Of a stretch of DNA of 36,350 nucleotides, positions 18,540 to 32,480 are shown one piece after another. How positions within the stretch are numbered: position 1 is the first letter of the stretch; every line of letters begins with the position of its first letter. Location: assembly GCA_030651175.1 (NCBI GenBank), contig JAUSCR010000175.1:1-36350 (forward strand). The letters are read 5' to 3'. Source of the DNA: Dehalococcoidia bacterium. Its GTDB lineage: Bacteria; Chloroflexota; Dehalococcoidia; Lucifugimonadales; SHYF01. The translations under genes were made by a program, and so were the position numbers. The notes below the pieces were generated by a model, which ran no database searches, had not been told where the DNA came from, and was given only the letters and a program-made list of their open reading frames with translations.

Positions 18540-20594
18540 TCAACGGGACGGGGAGATTCCTGACCGCCTGGGAGGAGATAGGGTGTCCAGGCGGCCCTTG
18601 AAATCGTTCATGGCAACGGCGATGGAATCTCCCATCTCCCCCAGCTTTGTGGAAACGGACTCGCTCAACTCGCTTATGCGTGTGGAGAGAGAGCCCTCCA
18701 ATTCGCCCTTCCGGGAAGCTGCGGTCTCCATTAGCTCTGTCAGGCCCGTAGAAGCCGAAGCGCGCAACTCACCGAGCTTGACAGAAACCGACTTGCTCAA
18801 CTCATCAACCTTGGATGCCAGGGACACCTGCAACTCTTCCCTGGTAGTTGATAAAGAGGCCCGAATGTCACCAATCCTGCTGGATAGGGTGTCGCTCAAC
18901 TCATCCATTTTCACGGAGAGGGTCTCTTCCAGGTTGTTAACCCTGGCTGTGATGGCGTTTCTCATCTCCGCTGACCGGGACACGCCAGGAGCGGCCGTTT
19001 GGCCAAACCTGGCGGAGACAGAGTTTGAGAGATCTCTCAGGGAGGAGAACACCGATTCTTTGGTCTGTTGTAGGGTGGAGAAAACGGTTTCCTCCAGTTG
19101 CCCAATTCTAGGCTCTGCTAACTCCTTGGCAGGACTTATGGAGATGGGCGCCATGCTTTCCATGCGGCGCTGCTCAATCACCCCGTCATAGGCCCGGCTG
19201 CGGAACATTCGGAAGATCCGCTCATACATCTTGTCCACAGGATGGAGCTTGCTGGTGTATTTGGCATACACCTCTTGGGCCTCTTGCATGCCCCACCGCT
19301 TGTCCTGAAACATGAACTCCCGGCCTGTGTACAGGTGGTAGGGCCTCATCTTGCCCTCGGGCAGAAGGGAACCATCCTCGTCCAGTGGAACCAGATTCCA
19401 GTTCACAGTCGCTGGCAGCGGCGTGAGCCAGTTGGCCGTCTGATACCGGCTGACAGTCTTGACCCAGTCGGCCATCTCCATGATGCCAGCTTCGGTGTCG
19501 TATGGGAGGCCGATTATGGTCATAGCTGTGACTATGAACCCCATCTTGTTCAATGTCACCAGGTCGCGGTGCACCTGGGTGGGATCCTGGCGTTTCCTTA
19601 CAATTTTCAAGTTTTCGGCGCTGCTGGACTCCACGCCCAAGTACAACATCTCTATATTCGCTTGCCGCATGGCCTGAGCCAGCTCAGGGTCCTGCCCAAC
19701 CTCTGCGCGGGTCTGGCAGATCATCCACATGTCTTCGGAATGCCCGTTCCAGCTCTTGAGGCGGGCAAGCCGTTCGTCCCGGAACTTGGTGGCCCTTAGA
19801 GGTGGAGGATGCAGGTCGTCGGAGATAAACACGCTAAACCGCCCGTCCTTGGCTGTGTATATCTTGCCATCCTCCGCCAGCTTCTGTATCTGGGCCAAAC
19901 GGAGGAGCTCCGTCTCCCGCGAGACCATGCGATACCCCAGGAACTGCTGGATTACCTGGCAGAAGGTGCACTTCTCAGTGCAACCGCGAACTGTCTCCAA
20001 GACTCCCGCCGCCAGCGGATTGCGAGGCGTCAGGTCCCGCATGGAATCAAAGTCAGGCAACTGAACGTAGTCAGCAGGAATCAGGCCACGCTTTTCCGTG
20101 TGTACGAATTTCCCGCTGTCCAGGAAAGCGATGCCGGGAACCTTGTGGAGTTGGGCTGTGAGGTTCTGGCCCGTGTACTTGACCATTACGTCGCAAAGCT
20201 GGCCCACCACGTCCTCGCCCTCCCGTATAACCACAACGTCCACTTTGCCGTAACGCAGGGCCTCTTCCGCCAGCGGGCTCATGTGAGGGCCGCCGCCTAT
20301 GATCTTGAGGTCGGGTTGGTGTTCTCGGGCCGCACGCGTTATCTCGTAGGCTCTGGGCGCTTCGTTGATGAGGGCGGTAACCATGAGGATGTCAACGTCA
20401 TCCAGGTCTTTCCCTGGGTCTATGTTCCCGTTGCGGTCCTCGTACCAGATATCGCGGTCGTAGAGGAACTCGCCCTGCCACTGCTTGAGAGCGCCGGAGA
20501 TATACAGGGGCCCCTGCCTGGGAATAGCCACGTACTCAAAGTTGCCGCCGGTGGACTTGGGGGCCACCAGCATTACGTTTCTTGTTCGGGACAC
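18540..20594 (-). CDS. B12-binding-fold radical SAM protein with a C-terminal hendecad-repeat tail
   Basis: About 684 residues if started at the GTG at 20594 (AAAGGA 8 bases upstream); an upstream GTG at 20684 would add 30. The N-terminal domain looks like a cobalamin-binding Rossmann fold ('RNVMLVAPKS', 'LKIIGGGPH', 'VVVIREGE'), though no DxHxxG motif is seen. The radical SAM core follows with C205-x3-C209-x2-C212 ('RGCTEKCTFCQ') binding the 4Fe-4S cluster. 'MLYLGVESS' and 'TIIGLPYDT' are typical later strands. From about residue 497 to 672, sixteen consecutive 11-residue units run without a break, for example MDELSDTLSSR, VDELSKSVSVK and ISELSESVSTK. Such hendecads form right-handed coiled coils or amphipathic membrane-binding helices. 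The substrate is unknown. Confidence 0.88.
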   Translation of the reverse strand: MSRTRNVMLVAPKSTGGNFEYVAIPRQGPLYISGALKQWQGEFLYDRDIWYEDRNGNIDPGKDLDDVDILMVTALINEAPRAYEITRAAREHQPDLKIIGGGPHMSPLAEEALRYGKVDVVVIREGEDVVGQLCDVMVKYTGQNLTAQLHKVPGIAFLDSGKFVHTEKRGLIPADYVQLPDFDSMRDLTPRNPLAAGVLETVRGCTEKCTFCQVIQQFLGYRMVSRETELLRLAQIQKLAEDGKIYTAKDGRFSVFISDDLHPPPLRATKFRDERLARLKSWNGHSEDMWMICQTRAEVGQDPELAQAMRQANIEMLYLGVESSSAENLKIVRKRQDPTQVHRDLVTLNKMGFIVTAMTIIGLPYDTEAGIMEMADWVKTVSRYQTANWLTPLPATVNWNLVPLDEDGSLLPEGKMRPYHLYTGREFMFQDKRWGMQEAQEVYAKYTSKLHPVDKMYERIFRMFRSRAYDGVIEQRRMESMAPISISPAKELAEPRIGQLEETVFSTLQQTKESVFSSLRDLSNSVSARFGQTAAPGVSRSAEMRNAITARVNNLEETLSVKMDELSDTLSSRIGDIRASLSTTREELQVSLASKVDELSKSVSVKLGELRASASTGLTELMETAASRKGELEGSLSTRISELSESVSTKLGEMGDSIAVAMNDFKGRLDTLSPPRRSGISPSR

Positions 20595-20758
20595 TGGATT
20601 TTCCTTTTGGGAGTTCCGTACCAGGTATGCCAGTCGTAGGTAGGAGATGTTCCTGGCGTTCGGTAGAGATAGCGCATTATACACCTAAGCGGCAAGAAAA
20701 TGGAATAAATACGGCTAGCAGCTAGCCGTTAGCTTGGCATAAGGTGGAACTCAGGAAC

Positions 20759-25681: not shown

Positions 25682-26980
25682 ATGTATCTCTGGAAAGTAG
25701 TTCTTGGGATTATGATTACCGTTGCTGTTCTTTCACTGACCTATGGAGTAGCTAACAAGATTAACGGACTGCAACAGCGACTAACGTTAACTGAGGGCAT
25801 ACTAGAAGGCAAGGTGGGGGACATTAGGGCATTGCAAGCAACTTTGGATGGCAAGAATCTCCAGATTGGACAGCTTGAGGTGTCAGAAGCGGGGCTTAAG
25901 GAGCAACTAGGTGCACTGCAGGTAAAGCATACGACTCTCTTGCAAGAGAAGGCTGATCTGGAGGTCACAGCCCTGGGCCTAAAGACGCTATCACTAGACT
26001 TGCAAGAAAAACTGGTCTCCAAGGGAAAGGAATATGATGCCTTACAAGGGACTTATGGCGTCCTCTCAACCGCAAATAAGGCACTGCAGGTAGAGCATAC
26101 TACTCTCTTGCAAGAGAAGGCTGGTCTGGAGGTAACGGTTCTGGGACTAAAGACCATATCACTAGACTTGCAAGGAAAACTGGACTCCAAGGGAAAGGAA
26201 TATGATGTCTTGTCCTCTGCAGTCGGAACTTTGGAAGGAGTAAAGTCCCAAGTAAGTGGGCTTCAGCAACAAGTGCAGTCTCTGAACGGGGATATAGCAC
26301 GCTTGCAGGCTGCAAGAGCTCCCCTAATTGTAGAGTCCAACAGAGGCTCCTTTGCTTGCACTGGGAGTATGGAGCCGAAGATTACCTGTCTTGACGAAGC
26401 TACTTGGCTGTCTAACTTCCGACCGCAAGAAGTAATAGTAGGAACAGTCGTCTCCTTTACTCCCACTGCAGAGTGTAAGCTGTCGAGTACTCGTGTAGCG
26501 CATAGAGTTACGACAATAAGGGTAGAAGCAGGGACTATCTACTACCGGACGAAAGGTGATGCCAATTCTAGTGACGATGGCTGCTGGATACCTAGTTCCA
26601 GCGTAAATGGCTACATCATAACCCTCTACAAGAATACCAAGTTAGAGAATGCTCCTATAAGAGATAGAATCAATGCCTTGAAGGTAACTATGGACTGGGC
26701 TGAGGCTGCCTATGATGCAGCTCATCAAATCTATGAACAAAAGAAGGTGTCTTACGACTTGAAGTTGGCCGCCTACCAGACCTATGTAACACTTTACTGC
26801 CCAGGTAATACCTGTCCTGTCCAGTATTATTCTACCGCCAAGAGCTTGTTCGATGAACTAGAAACACTTCGATTAGCTGTAACTGCGGCTTCTATAGCAA
26901 ATAATACAGGCTTGGCCCAGTACAATACAGCCTACAATAGTTACTGGGCAGCGATAGAGGCGGAAAGAAGCAGGTTGTAA
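25682..26980 (+). CDS. Membrane-anchored coiled coil carrying a SipW-type signal-peptidase-like domain
   Basis: 432 residues. One N-terminal transmembrane segment (~5-25, 'VVLGIMITVAVLSLTYGVA') is followed by about 180 residues of coiled coil with an internal 56-residue duplication. A domain resembling S26B/SipW signal peptidase then starts near residue 220. The 'TGSMEP' motif places the nucleophile at S229, 'RVAHRVT' gives H274 (SipW-type enzymes use His instead of Lys), and 'TKGDANSSDDG' gives D293. A second helical region (~325-432) closes the protein. Known S26B enzymes have their membrane anchors directly beside the catalytic domain; here the domain is held off the membrane by a stalk. 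GC content is visibly lower than in neighbours. The proteolytic role is inferred from the motifs. A 48-residue miniprotein gene follows 44 bases downstream. Confidence 0.75.
   Translation: MYLWKVVLGIMITVAVLSLTYGVANKINGLQQRLTLTEGILEGKVGDIRALQATLDGKNLQIGQLEVSEAGLKEQLGALQVKHTTLLQEKADLEVTALGLKTLSLDLQEKLVSKGKEYDALQGTYGVLSTANKALQVEHTTLLQEKAGLEVTVLGLKTISLDLQGKLDSKGKEYDVLSSAVGTLEGVKSQVSGLQQQVQSLNGDIARLQAARAPLIVESNRGSFACTGSMEPKITCLDEATWLSNFRPQEVIVGTVVSFTPTAECKLSSTRVAHRVTTIRVEAGTIYYRTKGDANSSDDGCWIPSSSVNGYIITLYKNTKLENAPIRDRINALKVTMDWAEAAYDAAHQIYEQKKVSYDLKLAAYQTYVTLYCPGNTCPVQYYSTAKSLFDELETLRLAVTAASIANNTGLAQYNTAYNSYWAAIEAERSRL
25916..26206 (+). repeat. 168-base internal direct duplication
   Basis: Two copies start at 25916 and 26084, both with CTGCAGGTA and the CTCTCTTGCAAGAGAAGGCT block, and share about 120 highly similar bases each (period 168 bases, 56 codons). 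The protein repeat is 'HTTLLQEKA..LEVT.LGLKT.SLDLQ' ending 'SKGKEYD'. High nucleotide identity suggests a recent duplication that lengthened the coiled-coil stalk. Confidence 0.85.
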
Positions 26981-27024: not shown

Positions 27025-27171
27025 ATGCGTAGACTACGAAGGTACTACCTCACCAACATGTGGGTGCCTCTACCGCTCCCGACCAAGCTGCGGCTTGTTG
27101 TGAGGAACGTATGGCTGCGAGTGTACCGCCGGCAGCTTTGCTGTGGGCACCCCGGCGAGCCAGGGTGTTGA
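27025..27171 (+). CDS. Small Arg-rich protein ending in a CCGHPGEPGC motif
   Basis: 48-residue ORF. The N-terminal part is very basic and amphipathic ('MRRLRRYYLTNMWVPLPLP', 'RLVVRNVWLRVYRRQ') and the tail is C-C-G-H-P-G-E-P-G-C. Three cysteines, a histidine and a Gly/Pro frame in so short a tail suggest a metal site or a processed/secreted peptide. I am not able to name a family with certainty, although short proteins with a C-terminal CG-x-PGC-like tail seem familiar from Chloroflexota. It sits 44 bases after the coiled-coil peptidase-like gene on the same strand. The ribosome binding site is weak (GAGCGGTG). Two hairpins follow. Confidence 0.55.
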   Translation: MRRLRRYYLTNMWVPLPLPTKLRLVVRNVWLRVYRRQLCCGHPGEPGC

Positions 27172-30192: not shown

Positions 30193-30486
30193 ATGATTTT
30201 TGGGTTTCGATGTCATTCTAAGTCCTCCCAGGAAGGACTTAGCGGGACACTTTCCGCCATCCAAGAGACTTTTTGTGCAAGGCTGGCGGCAGGCAAAGAA
30301 TGTGGGGGTATCCCTGGGATGCATCCTACGGGATGCTCAAAGTGTATACCACGGTATGTTGTTCACCCGCTTGGCCCGTGTCAGGATGAATGCGTGCTTC
30401 CCGGCCAGAATCTCTACTGGAGACAGGGGGAGCGAGGGCCAAATAGGGGCAAGGTGAGGCCACCGGAAGAAGGAGGAATAGAAGAT
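30193..30486. promoter_or_regulatory. Leader region of gvpA
   Basis: About 290 bases without a gene. It contains a hairpin (CTAAGTCCT at 30218-30226, AGGACTTAG at 30234-30242) and a short palindrome GGATGCATCC (30318-30327) with a nearby second GGGATGC. No convincing -35/-10 or sigma-54 site is visible. The gvpA promoter must lie here, or further up in the repeats. Confidence 0.4.
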
Positions 30487-30696
30487 ATGGCAGTGGAAAA
30501 AAGCATGGCATCAACCAGTTTGGCAGAGGTGATAGACCGCATCCTGGACAAGGGTGTGGTTGTGGACGCCTGGGTGCGGATCAGCCTGGTGGGCATCGAG
30601 ATACTGGCCATCGAGGCCAGGGTCGTTGTCGCCGGCGTTGACACATTCCTCAAGTACGCCGAGGCCGTGGGCCTGACAGCCGCGGCAGCCGCCTAG
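30487..30696 (+). CDS. gvpA: Gas vesicle structural protein GvpA
   Basis: 69 residues, the expected size for the main shell protein, which packs into ribs of the hollow gas vesicle. The sequence is classic GvpA: '[29 protein letters not shown]' followed by '[24 protein letters not shown]' with the helix-strand-strand-helix fold. It differs from many only in its short Ala-rich tail. AGGAGGA lies 8 bases upstream of the ATG. It is the first gene of the cluster, followed by a 186-base gap, so it may be transcribed most strongly. Confidence 0.97.
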
Positions 30697-30882
30697 GCAG
30701 CCGGCTCGTAACGCTCTGGGTGACCTTCCAGGAGTGGCCCAGCCAGCCAGCCGCCCTTTCCGGGCAAAGCATTTGAAAATACCGGTGGCGCACCCAAGGT
30801 TACGCTGGCGAGGTCATTAGCCTGGCGAGGTCACCTGGAGCCTCGATCTCTAGCAAAAGTAAGTAATAAGAAGGAGGAGACC

Positions 30883-31269
30883 ATGTCATTACAAGCAGAG
30901 ATGCACAGTCTTGTGGGGCAGATTAGTAGCGCCAGGGAGACGCGGAGGTCGTCCCTGTCTTCCATGCGACAAGGGGTTGGTGGACAACTTCATCAGTTGC
31001 ACCAGAGCCGCCAACGCATGGCTCGGGACCTGCGCTCCAACCTGAGCAGGATCAGGCCTAGCCTGCACCAGGGAGAGCAGCAGCGCAGCGCAGGGGTCCA
31101 GCGCCAAATGGGGGAGATCGCCCACAGCAGAGCCGAAGGGCAGGCAGTGTGGCGGACCTTCATTGGTACCCGGCACGGGGAAAAGATCGGAGGGCCAGCG
31201 CCCTCCACTGCTCAGCCACAGGAAGGGGCGGCGCCTGGCGGACACCGGGCGAAGTCTCGGGGGAAGTAG
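30883..31269 (+). CDS. Gas-vesicle-cluster helical protein, possible GvpC-like
   Basis: 128 residues, very polar and basic, rich in Arg, Gln, Ser and Gly with almost no hydrophobic core. Predicted to be one long helix for about 90 residues ('MSLQAEMHSLVGQISSARETRR', 'LHQLHQSRQRMARDLRSNLSRI'), then a Pro/Gly-rich tail. Position directly after gvpA and the Gln/Arg-rich helical style recall GvpC, the outer-surface strengthening protein, but the 33-residue GvpC repeats are not evident, so this is only a hypothesis. The start is firm: AAGGAGGAG lies just before the ATG. An alternative is an assembly scaffold. Confidence 0.75.
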   Translation: MSLQAEMHSLVGQISSARETRRSSLSSMRQGVGGQLHQLHQSRQRMARDLRSNLSRIRPSLHQGEQQRSAGVQRQMGEIAHSRAEGQAVWRTFIGTRHGEKIGGPAPSTAQPQEGAAPGGHRAKSRGK

Positions 31270-31317
31270 GCACGAGGTGGCCAGGGTGGAGAGGCCTGGG
31301 CGGCGCTACTTAGGATC

Positions 31318-31449
31318 TATCTCAAAACGCCTTTGTCATTCTGAGAAGTCCCGATTCATCGGGACGACGAAGAATCTGGGGAGGGGTATTCCCCGCCACC
31401 CCAGACCCTTCGCCCCGACAAGTCGGGACTCAGGGTGACATTTGAGAAA
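31318..31449. repeat. Palindromic element, family A copy 3, inside the gas vesicle cluster
   Basis: Outer ends TATCTCA (31318-31324) and TGAGAAA (31443-31449). The inner core has TTGTCATTCTGAG and CTCAGGGTGACA ends and CCCGAT..ATCGGG and CCCGAC..GTCGGG hairpins. The left ~70 bases are nearly identical to the inverse of 20820-20890. It separates the GvpC-like gene from gvpN and might reduce read-through. Confidence 0.8.
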
Positions 31450-31550
31450 GTTTCTTGGCCCGGCAATCGGAAGTGCGGAGCTTGGGGGGCCTTGGACAAG
31501 GTACCTTGGCCCCACGGGCATCGGCCAAACCAAAGGAGGGTGGTAATCAC

Positions 31551-32480
31551 ATGGTATTAGATGGAATGACGACTGTATTGCAGCCACGGCCGCTGCCCAA
31601 CTTCGTTGTAACACCATTCCTTCAGGATGTGGTGGACCGTGCCCTCACCTACATCGCCGCTGGTTTCCCCATCCATTTCCGGGGAGCTTCGGGCTCTGGC
31701 AAGACCACGCTGGCCATGCACATCGCCAGCTTGATAGGTCGCCCCGTGGTGATGATCCACGGAGACGAGGAGTTTTCCACTTCCGACCTGGTGGGCGGCG
31801 AGCATGGCTATCGCACGCGAAAGGTAATAGACAACTTCATCTCCACTGTCCTGAAGACGGAGGAGGACTCCAGCCGCCAGTGGGTAGACAACCGCCTGAC
31901 CGTGGCTTGCCGGTACGGTTTCACCCTCGTTTACGACGAGTTCACTCGTTCCCGCCCGGAAGCCAACAATTCCCTTCTGCCGGTGCTTCAAGAGAGGATG
32001 CTGGATCTTCCATCCGCCAGGAACGGCGACGGCTATCTCCATGTCCATCCGGACTTCACCGCCATCTTCACCAGCAATCCTGAGGAGTACGCGGGCATCT
32101 ACCGGAGTCAGGATGCTCTTCGCGACCGGATGGTCACTATGGACATGGAGCAGTTCGATGAGGAGACGGAGATACAGATTACCCAGGCCAAGGCCGGCGT
32201 CGAGCGGGCAGCGGCGGCAAAGATAGTTGGCATCGTCCGTGGCCTGAGGGAATCGGGAGTATGTGAGTTCGCTCCCACGATAAGGGGCTGCATCATGGTG
32301 GCCAGGGCTATGAGGGTACGGAACGGCTCTATTGCTCCAGGAGATGGGATGTTCAGGCAAATCTGCCAGGACATCCTGGCGTCCGAGTCCTCCAGGGGAG
32401 GCAGCAAGACCCAAACGTTCCAGGTCAAATCGGCGCTCAATGGGCTAATAGACGCCGCTGAGGTCAGCGGCGCTTGGTAG
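31551..32480 (+). CDS. gvpN: Gas vesicle AAA ATPase GvpN
   Basis: 309 residues. GvpN is an MoxR-like AAA+ ATPase needed for full-size vesicles. Walker A is 'GASGSGKT' (45-52), Walker B is the 'FTLVYDEFTRS' stretch, and 'FTAIFTSNPEEYAG' is the sensor-1 region. 'GEHGYRTRKVIDNFI' is typical of the GvpN group. The ATG at 31551 has AAAGGAGGG about 10 bases upstream; a longer frame back to 31455 starts inside the repeat and is rejected. The TAG stop is the start of a family C remnant (TAGCCTGCTGAAAAA). Confidence 0.96.
   Translation: MVLDGMTTVLQPRPLPNFVVTPFLQDVVDRALTYIAAGFPIHFRGASGSGKTTLAMHIASLIGRPVVMIHGDEEFSTSDLVGGEHGYRTRKVIDNFISTVLKTEEDSSRQWVDNRLTVACRYGFTLVYDEFTRSRPEANNSLLPVLQERMLDLPSARNGDGYLHVHPDFTAIFTSNPEEYAGIYRSQDALRDRMVTMDMEQFDEETEIQITQAKAGVERAAAAKIVGIVRGLRESGVCEFAPTIRGCIMVARAMRVRNGSIAPGDGMFRQICQDILASESSRGGSKTQTFQVKSALNGLIDAAEVSGAW

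Follow-up and report, generated by a model that had tools for sequence, protein, structure and literature searches.

A putative coiled-coil-stalked, S26B-like peptidase family in one order of Dehalococcoidia

The 36,350-nucleotide stretch of Dehalococcoidia DNA analysed here (hereafter the window) carries a gene, at positions 25682 to 26980 of the + strand, whose product appears to combine an S26B-like signal peptidase domain with a membrane anchor and a long coiled-coil stalk. We propose that this protein is a serine peptidase with the S26B fold that, although tethered to the membrane, acts at a distance from it on exported surface proteins, a reading to which we assign a probability of about 60%. 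The proposal builds on features read from the sequence, namely the domains, the invariant catalytic residues, the loss of membrane-facing hydrophobicity and, in a sister clade, the association with proteins that carry a common N-terminal tag. A sequence-only reading of the same DNA had already described the structure correctly; we find that it applies more widely than to one gene, and we correct both the aspartate assigned to the catalytic triad and the candidate substrate. A literature search found nothing on stalked signal peptidases.

The window gene and its stalk

The gene is an uninterrupted open reading frame of 432 aa plus stop (ATG at 25682, TAA at 26978–26980), present in a single copy in the window's genome. 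The N-terminal membrane helix, long coiled coil and S26B/SipW-type domain reported for it earlier are real, with reading frame, hydropathy, periodicity and homology in agreement. The anchor is a hydrophobic helix at about residues 7–25 (25700–25756, +), with a hydropathy of 2.24 over 19 residues. The coiled coil, previously put at about 180 residues, was measured as residues 28–213 (25763–26320, +), a stretch of about 186 residues delimited by the lack of proline, the periodicity, the modelled helices and the repeats found in the family. It contains zero prolines and shows a hydrophobic period of 3.5 residues, which was equalled in 11 of 1000 shuffles. In the structure model, helices are predicted at residues 2–95, 101–177 and 187–215, parted by low-confidence breaks at 96–100 and 178–186.

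A direct-repeat search detected an internal duplication within the stalk, with two copies of 131 nt (25913–26043 and 26081–26211, both +) lying 168 nt apart (56 aa, 8 heptads) and sharing 90% identity; Tandem Repeats Finder reported no repeats in the window gene. Across the family, the strongest self-repeats of the stalks are mostly multiples of seven (56, 21, 14 and 7 residues), with some members deviating. Given that the length changes largely by whole heptads, the stalk can be read as a spacer.

Beyond the S26B-like domain lies a C-terminal helical tail of about 110 residues that the earlier description did not include (residues 321–432; 26642–26977, +). It contains Cys373 and Cys378 and is modelled as two long helices with pLDDT mostly above 80, and a tail of similar size is found in most full-length relatives.

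A congeneric genome (G147) holds an ortholog of the window gene (L001/L047) at the syntenic position and in the same gene order. In the pairwise comparison with L001, dN/dS was 0.255 for the whole gene, with values of 0.321 for the stalk and 0.119 for the S26 domain, and on these values the gene appears to be under purifying selection, most strongly in the S26 domain. The lower GC content pointed out before was also recovered (47.1% in the gene versus 59% in the window), but the nearest relatives are likewise GC-low for their loci (46.8, 49.5 and 55.9%), so that it is best regarded as a clade feature. A recent foreign origin, as the low GC might suggest, is not supported, considering these same-clade relatives and the synteny in G147, and a viral origin was rejected, with no relative found in viral contigs.

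An S26B-like domain without membrane-facing hydrophobicity

The S26B-like domain comprises residues 214–320 (26321–26641, +), as indicated by matches to TIGR02228, to the SipW model and to SEC11 profiles and by the structure model. The isolated domain matched TIGR02228, the archaeal-type signal peptidase I model, with an E-value of 5e-11 and 42.7 bits, under the equivalog cut-off of 51.85, and the SipW model NF046067 with an E-value of 5.6e-6 and 26 bits, under its curated 190-bit equivalog cut-off; both models were matched by all nine family members scanned. In a PDB profile search, the family profile matched human SEC11C (E 1.5e-7) and SEC11A (E 3.4e-6). On the basis of this homology (TIGR02228, SipW and SEC11C), the domain is assigned to S26B, with scores that do not reach the equivalog cut-offs. 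Single-sequence PDB matches to ABC transporters look like chance, the alignments lying around the LDEAT...HR stretch of those ATPases, and a Pfam scan of the window protein returned chance coiled-coil matches only.

The domain was modelled with AlphaFold from a 9-sequence alignment (mean pLDDT 75, pTM 0.67); one of the five models was good (75 versus 51 and below), and pLDDT is <50 around the serine. A Foldseek search with the full-length model was uninformative because long helices (colicins) and tudor domains took up most of its matches; it was rerun with the domain alone. Staphylococcus aureus SpsB then occupied PDB ranks 1–4 with a probability of 1.00 and E-values above 0.01 (every Foldseek match stayed above 0.001), and LexA and Streptococcus pyogenes SipA appeared lower among the matches. 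Since SpsB tops this list, the comparison with S26 peptidases that had been suggested earlier came out in favour of an S26 fold, and the domain is predicted, from a model of modest quality, to have the signal-peptidase fold.

The catalytic boxes of S26B (SGSMxP, HR and GD..D, with His, not Lys) are present in the window protein. In an alignment of about 25 family members with the S26B pair of the window's own genome and with SEC11A, four residues are invariant. These are Ser229 in CTGSMEP (26366–26368), the predicted nucleophile; His274 in AHRV (26501–26503), the predicted general base; Asp293 in KGD (26558–26560), which matches the first of the Asp residues in SEC11A TKGDNNAVDD; and Asp299 (26576–26578), at +6 from Asp293 as in SEC11A. 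All four are on the + strand, and their positions, like those of Cys226, Cys236, Cys265 and Cys301, were taken from the translation. The spacing of TKGDANSSDD in the window protein is that of the SEC11A segment, and the PDB profile match, which is independent of the SEC11A letters in that alignment, gave the same register. We take the SEC11A triad to be Ser56, His96 and Asp122; Asp122 aligns with Asp299, and Asp116 with Asp293. Given this Sec11 spacing, Asp299 is more likely than Asp293 to be the triad aspartate, so that from the layout originally proposed Ser229 and His274 are retained, invariant and aligned, whereas Asp293 probably cedes its place. In mutagenesis studies of Sec11-type enzymes, one Ser, one His and two Asp proved important in yeast and a single Asp essential in Haloferax (PMC2913515).

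Cys226 and Cys236 (26357–26389, +) flank the active-site serine; every family member aligned has both, and standard S26B peptidases have neither. Cys265 and Cys301 (26474–26584, +), a probable second disulfide, are both kept in the window-type clades and both missing in the tag-linked clade described below. Being present together or absent together, they fit a bonded pair in an exported protein, and the pairing of the cysteines supports, but does not prove, an outside (oxidising) location of the domain.

The search for the same fusion elsewhere that the sequence-only reading had recommended was productive. The same order of parts was found on eight contigs; within the order, about 15 genomes have it, with up to six copies in one of them (G161). 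A few further loci occur in other genomes of the class and one (L004) in a bin labelled Acidimicrobiaceae, an occurrence that may reflect a transfer or a mistake in binning. In a 400-genome sample of the phylum, a single-sequence search at 1e-8 gave no further match. As judged from these searches, the putative stalked peptidase is a family of one Dehalococcoidia order plus a few relatives. The anchor is mostly a membrane helix, with a lipoprotein-like start in L050, L066 and L023, and the stalks of complete genes are 144–283 residues long. In L066 (9078–10418), the lipoprotein-like start is followed by a Pro/Thr-rich linker replacing the coiled coil, so the type of stalk appears to be exchangeable. 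An unstalked Cys-type relative in G161 (L053) adjoins a stalked paralog and is possibly an intermediate.

With the known S26B peptidases (Sec11, archaeal signal peptidase I and SipW; TIGR02228 and NF046067) the family shares the homologous domain, the Ser-His-Asp layout with two conserved Asp and the N-terminal anchor. It differs from them in placing the active site 144–283 residues from the anchor, versus 2–17 in ordinary S26B, in the extra Cys pairs around the serine and in having a helical tail instead of the C-terminal hydrophobic segment. Membrane-facing hydrophobic segments are missing altogether. Over the 22 residues before the GSM box, mean hydropathy is -0.24 in the stalk family, whereas eight ordinary S26B proteins from this order average +1.60, and the hydropathy of the best C-terminal 19-mer is 0.51 versus 1.74, with one of the eight controls also lacking such a segment. 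In the human signal peptidase complex, the h-region of the signal peptide is held by TM1 and the C-terminal segment of Sec11A (PMC13385932); in the stalk family these elements are either displaced or missing. The stalk family departs from the arrangement in which the catalytic domain sits at the membrane with a hydrophobic pre-serine segment and an adjacent anchor. We regard the loss of these hydrophobic elements as the strongest sequence evidence that the domain is probably not a membrane-surface signal peptidase, and its occurrence across the family strengthens the earlier suggestion of an active site away from the membrane surface.

Tag proteins of a sister clade and the solitary window gene

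When flanking open reading frames were compared all-against-all, without any motif, one recurrent partner family was identified beside peptidase genes, in genomes G004, G047, G175 and G176. The partners are large secreted proteins encoded adjacent to or downstream of the peptidase gene and on its strand. Their bodies differ (FN3, LRR or SWM repeats), and their N-termini share a common leader and the motif F-x-LP-x-x-LE[EQ]GR-x-PP ('LPxxLEEGRxPP') and nothing else. The leaders are ordinary, ending in A-x-A-like sites directly before the motif, and the tag is positioned about 12–20 residues past the leader. A scan of the tag against NCBIfam gave weak single-member matches only. On contig C21 of G176 (L062/L102), ten same-strand tag proteins surround one stalk-peptidase gene, with FN3 or LRR bodies where examined.

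A profile of the N-terminal tag was built from nine seeds taken from these four genomes, in which matches to the seeds themselves arise by construction. Among the independent finds, G176 contributes five more copies, each on the contig that bears its only peptidase gene, and G047 and G175 one extra copy each. At L004, a tag gene lies about 10 bp downstream of the peptidase. Genome G685, inferred to be that of peptidase locus L006, which has no adjacent partner, contains three copies, and the fragmented genome G223 contains one copy and no detected peptidase. The tag is carried by 5 of 250 genomes of the order. Each of the six genomes with a peptidase of the tag-linked clade has it, and it hardly occurs elsewhere; the six tag-linked peptidases form a single clade with 100/100 support. 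These data suggest dedicated surface-protein processing in that clade, with the tag proteins as likely candidate substrates of its peptidase.

The window gene belongs to a clade distinct from the tag-linked one and stands alone. It has no neighbouring TasA/camelysin-like or other dedicated substrate gene of the SipW operon type, and a profile search detected no tag proteins in the window's genome. Conserved neighbours of the window-type paralogs and those of G161, G162 and G164 reflect general synteny between close genomes only. The co-conserved neighbour that the sequence-only reading had proposed to look for was not found for the window clade, partners being present in the sister clade only. 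Considering the different clade, the solitary gene and the tag-free genome, the sister-clade substrate must not be transferred to the window gene.

The sequence-only reading had instead offered as a substrate the 48-aa Cys/Gly/Pro miniprotein encoded just downstream (27025–27171, +), which ends in CCGHPGEPGC. We reject this candidate and place the miniprotein outside the system, since the motif occurs in 4 of 59 genomes, is absent from G147, which keeps the peptidase, and, in genomes other than the window's own, lies at unrelated places away from the peptidase. The open reading frames with CCGHPGEPGC are possibly a small-protein family. Besides the stalked gene, the window's genome contains three LepB-type and two ordinary S26B genes. 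As these five other signal peptidases cover housekeeping, the stalked protein appears to be an addition to normal signal-peptide processing.

Proposed action and alternative explanations

In the mechanism that we propose, the N-terminal helix would anchor the protein with the remainder outside the cell, and the coiled-coil stalk, its roughly 186 residues spanning no more than about 28 nm when straight, would lift the domain outward. The disulfide-stabilised domain would cut exported proteins through Ser229, His274 and Asp299, with Asp293 assisting. Since the bilayer-gripping hydrophobic elements have been lost, its substrates are probably surface proteins that present extended peptides, not nascent signal peptides; in the sister clade, they may be the co-encoded FN3, LRR and other tag-bearing surface proteins. 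The tag, 12–20 residues past the leader, would lie out of reach of an upright 28-nm stalk as long as the leader is in the membrane. Either an ordinary signal peptidase would remove the leader first, the tag then being handled at the surface, or the stalk would bend; the low-confidence breaks in the model are compatible with both. Known signal peptidases owe a large part of their specificity to the grip in which they hold the signal peptide at the membrane. If the proposal is true, the catalytic residues were kept and this grip was discarded, the S26 fold being reused as a reach-out surface protease, and, with the tag-linked clade, this would provide a first handle on surface-protein maturation in uncultured Dehalococcoidia.

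Tentatively, the family might represent a new sorting system. An S26B peptidase released from the membrane and carried by a coiled coil of adjustable length would recognize the N-terminal F-x-LP-x-x-LEEGR-x-PP tag of otherwise unrelated surface proteins and trim or attach these at a fixed height above the membrane; the solitary window gene would then have targets that are encoded elsewhere and bear a different tag. In the LPXTG/sortase and exosortase/PEP-CTERM systems, diverse surface proteins carry one short sorting tag and are processed by a dedicated enzyme. The sister-clade tag differs from theirs in being N-terminal, and its putative enzyme is an unrelated S26B peptidase; the likeness is one of logic only. 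SipW of Bacillus and Clostridium perfringens offers a further parallel, being an S26B enzyme dedicated to, and required by, the surface or matrix proteins TasA/TapA or BsaA that are encoded alongside it (PMC7395162). SipW, however, is the signal peptidase of its partners. Those of the sister-clade peptidases are FN3/LRR proteins marked by another N-terminal motif, and no partner is encoded beside the window gene.

The protein could also be a working signal peptidase if the three stalk helices form a hairpin, returning the domain to the membrane, where the signal peptides of selected proteins would be cut. Although the low-confidence breaks between the modelled helices and the A-x-A-like ends of the tag-protein leaders would suit this, we consider it unlikely, as the pre-serine and C-terminal hydrophobic elements are gone across the family, stalk length shifts by one block at a time (56 aa for the window gene), which would unbalance a hairpin, and the genome has five other signal peptidases. 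Alternatively, the domain may be no protease and instead bind peptides as a scaffold, or assist the assembly of surface proteins. S. pyogenes SipA is a precedent, having the fold and the cleft but no catalytic residues, and pilus polymerisation requires it (PMC4049620). The length of the stalk and the helical tail also resemble what a scaffold would have. Both SipA and, in our proposal, the stalk family use a signal-peptidase fold in the making of surface proteins, but SipA-like scaffolds have lost the catalytic residues, while in the stalk family Ser, His and both Asp never vary and dN/dS is lowest in the S26 domain (0.119), which makes a scaffold improbable. LexA belongs to the same superfamily and is among the Foldseek matches, and the flexible breaks near residues 96–100 and 178–186 might serve as sites if the domain cut its own stalk or tail and was released. 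Such self-cleavage is very improbable, given that no site is conserved in the stalk, which is the most length-variable part, and that the catalytic layout is the His-type of S26B, not the Ser-Lys of LexA.

These three explanations compete with the off-membrane peptidase that we prefer, with which a further one, concerning the sister clade, is compatible as far as the window gene goes. The tag proteins may be merely co-encoded surface components, or be processed by another enzyme, and we give this considerable weight, if somewhat short of even odds. The restriction of the association to one clade, the tag in G223 with no detected peptidase and the window-type paralogs without tag neighbours would all be expected from it, but it leaves aside that one tag is common to unrelated bodies (FN3, LRR and SWM) and nearly confined to the genomes of that clade.

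Several other loci deserve mention in their own right. On contig C177 of the window's genome (L067, 6701–9694), the two ordinary S26B genes stand in tandem and adjoin a gene for a protein with a TasA-like N-terminus (RTMALLTDSVPVAGNTVTTSAAF). Within the window, positions 18540–20684 (-) encode a B12-binding radical-SAM-type protein whose C-terminal about 170 residues consist of repeated amphipathic helices (SLSTRISELSESVSTKLGEM-like). A few kb past the stalk-peptidase gene, gas-vesicle genes were recognized by eye at 30193–32480, with a GvpA-like protein read from a start codon inside the open reading frame 30193–30696 and a GvpN-like AAA+ protein at 31455–32480.
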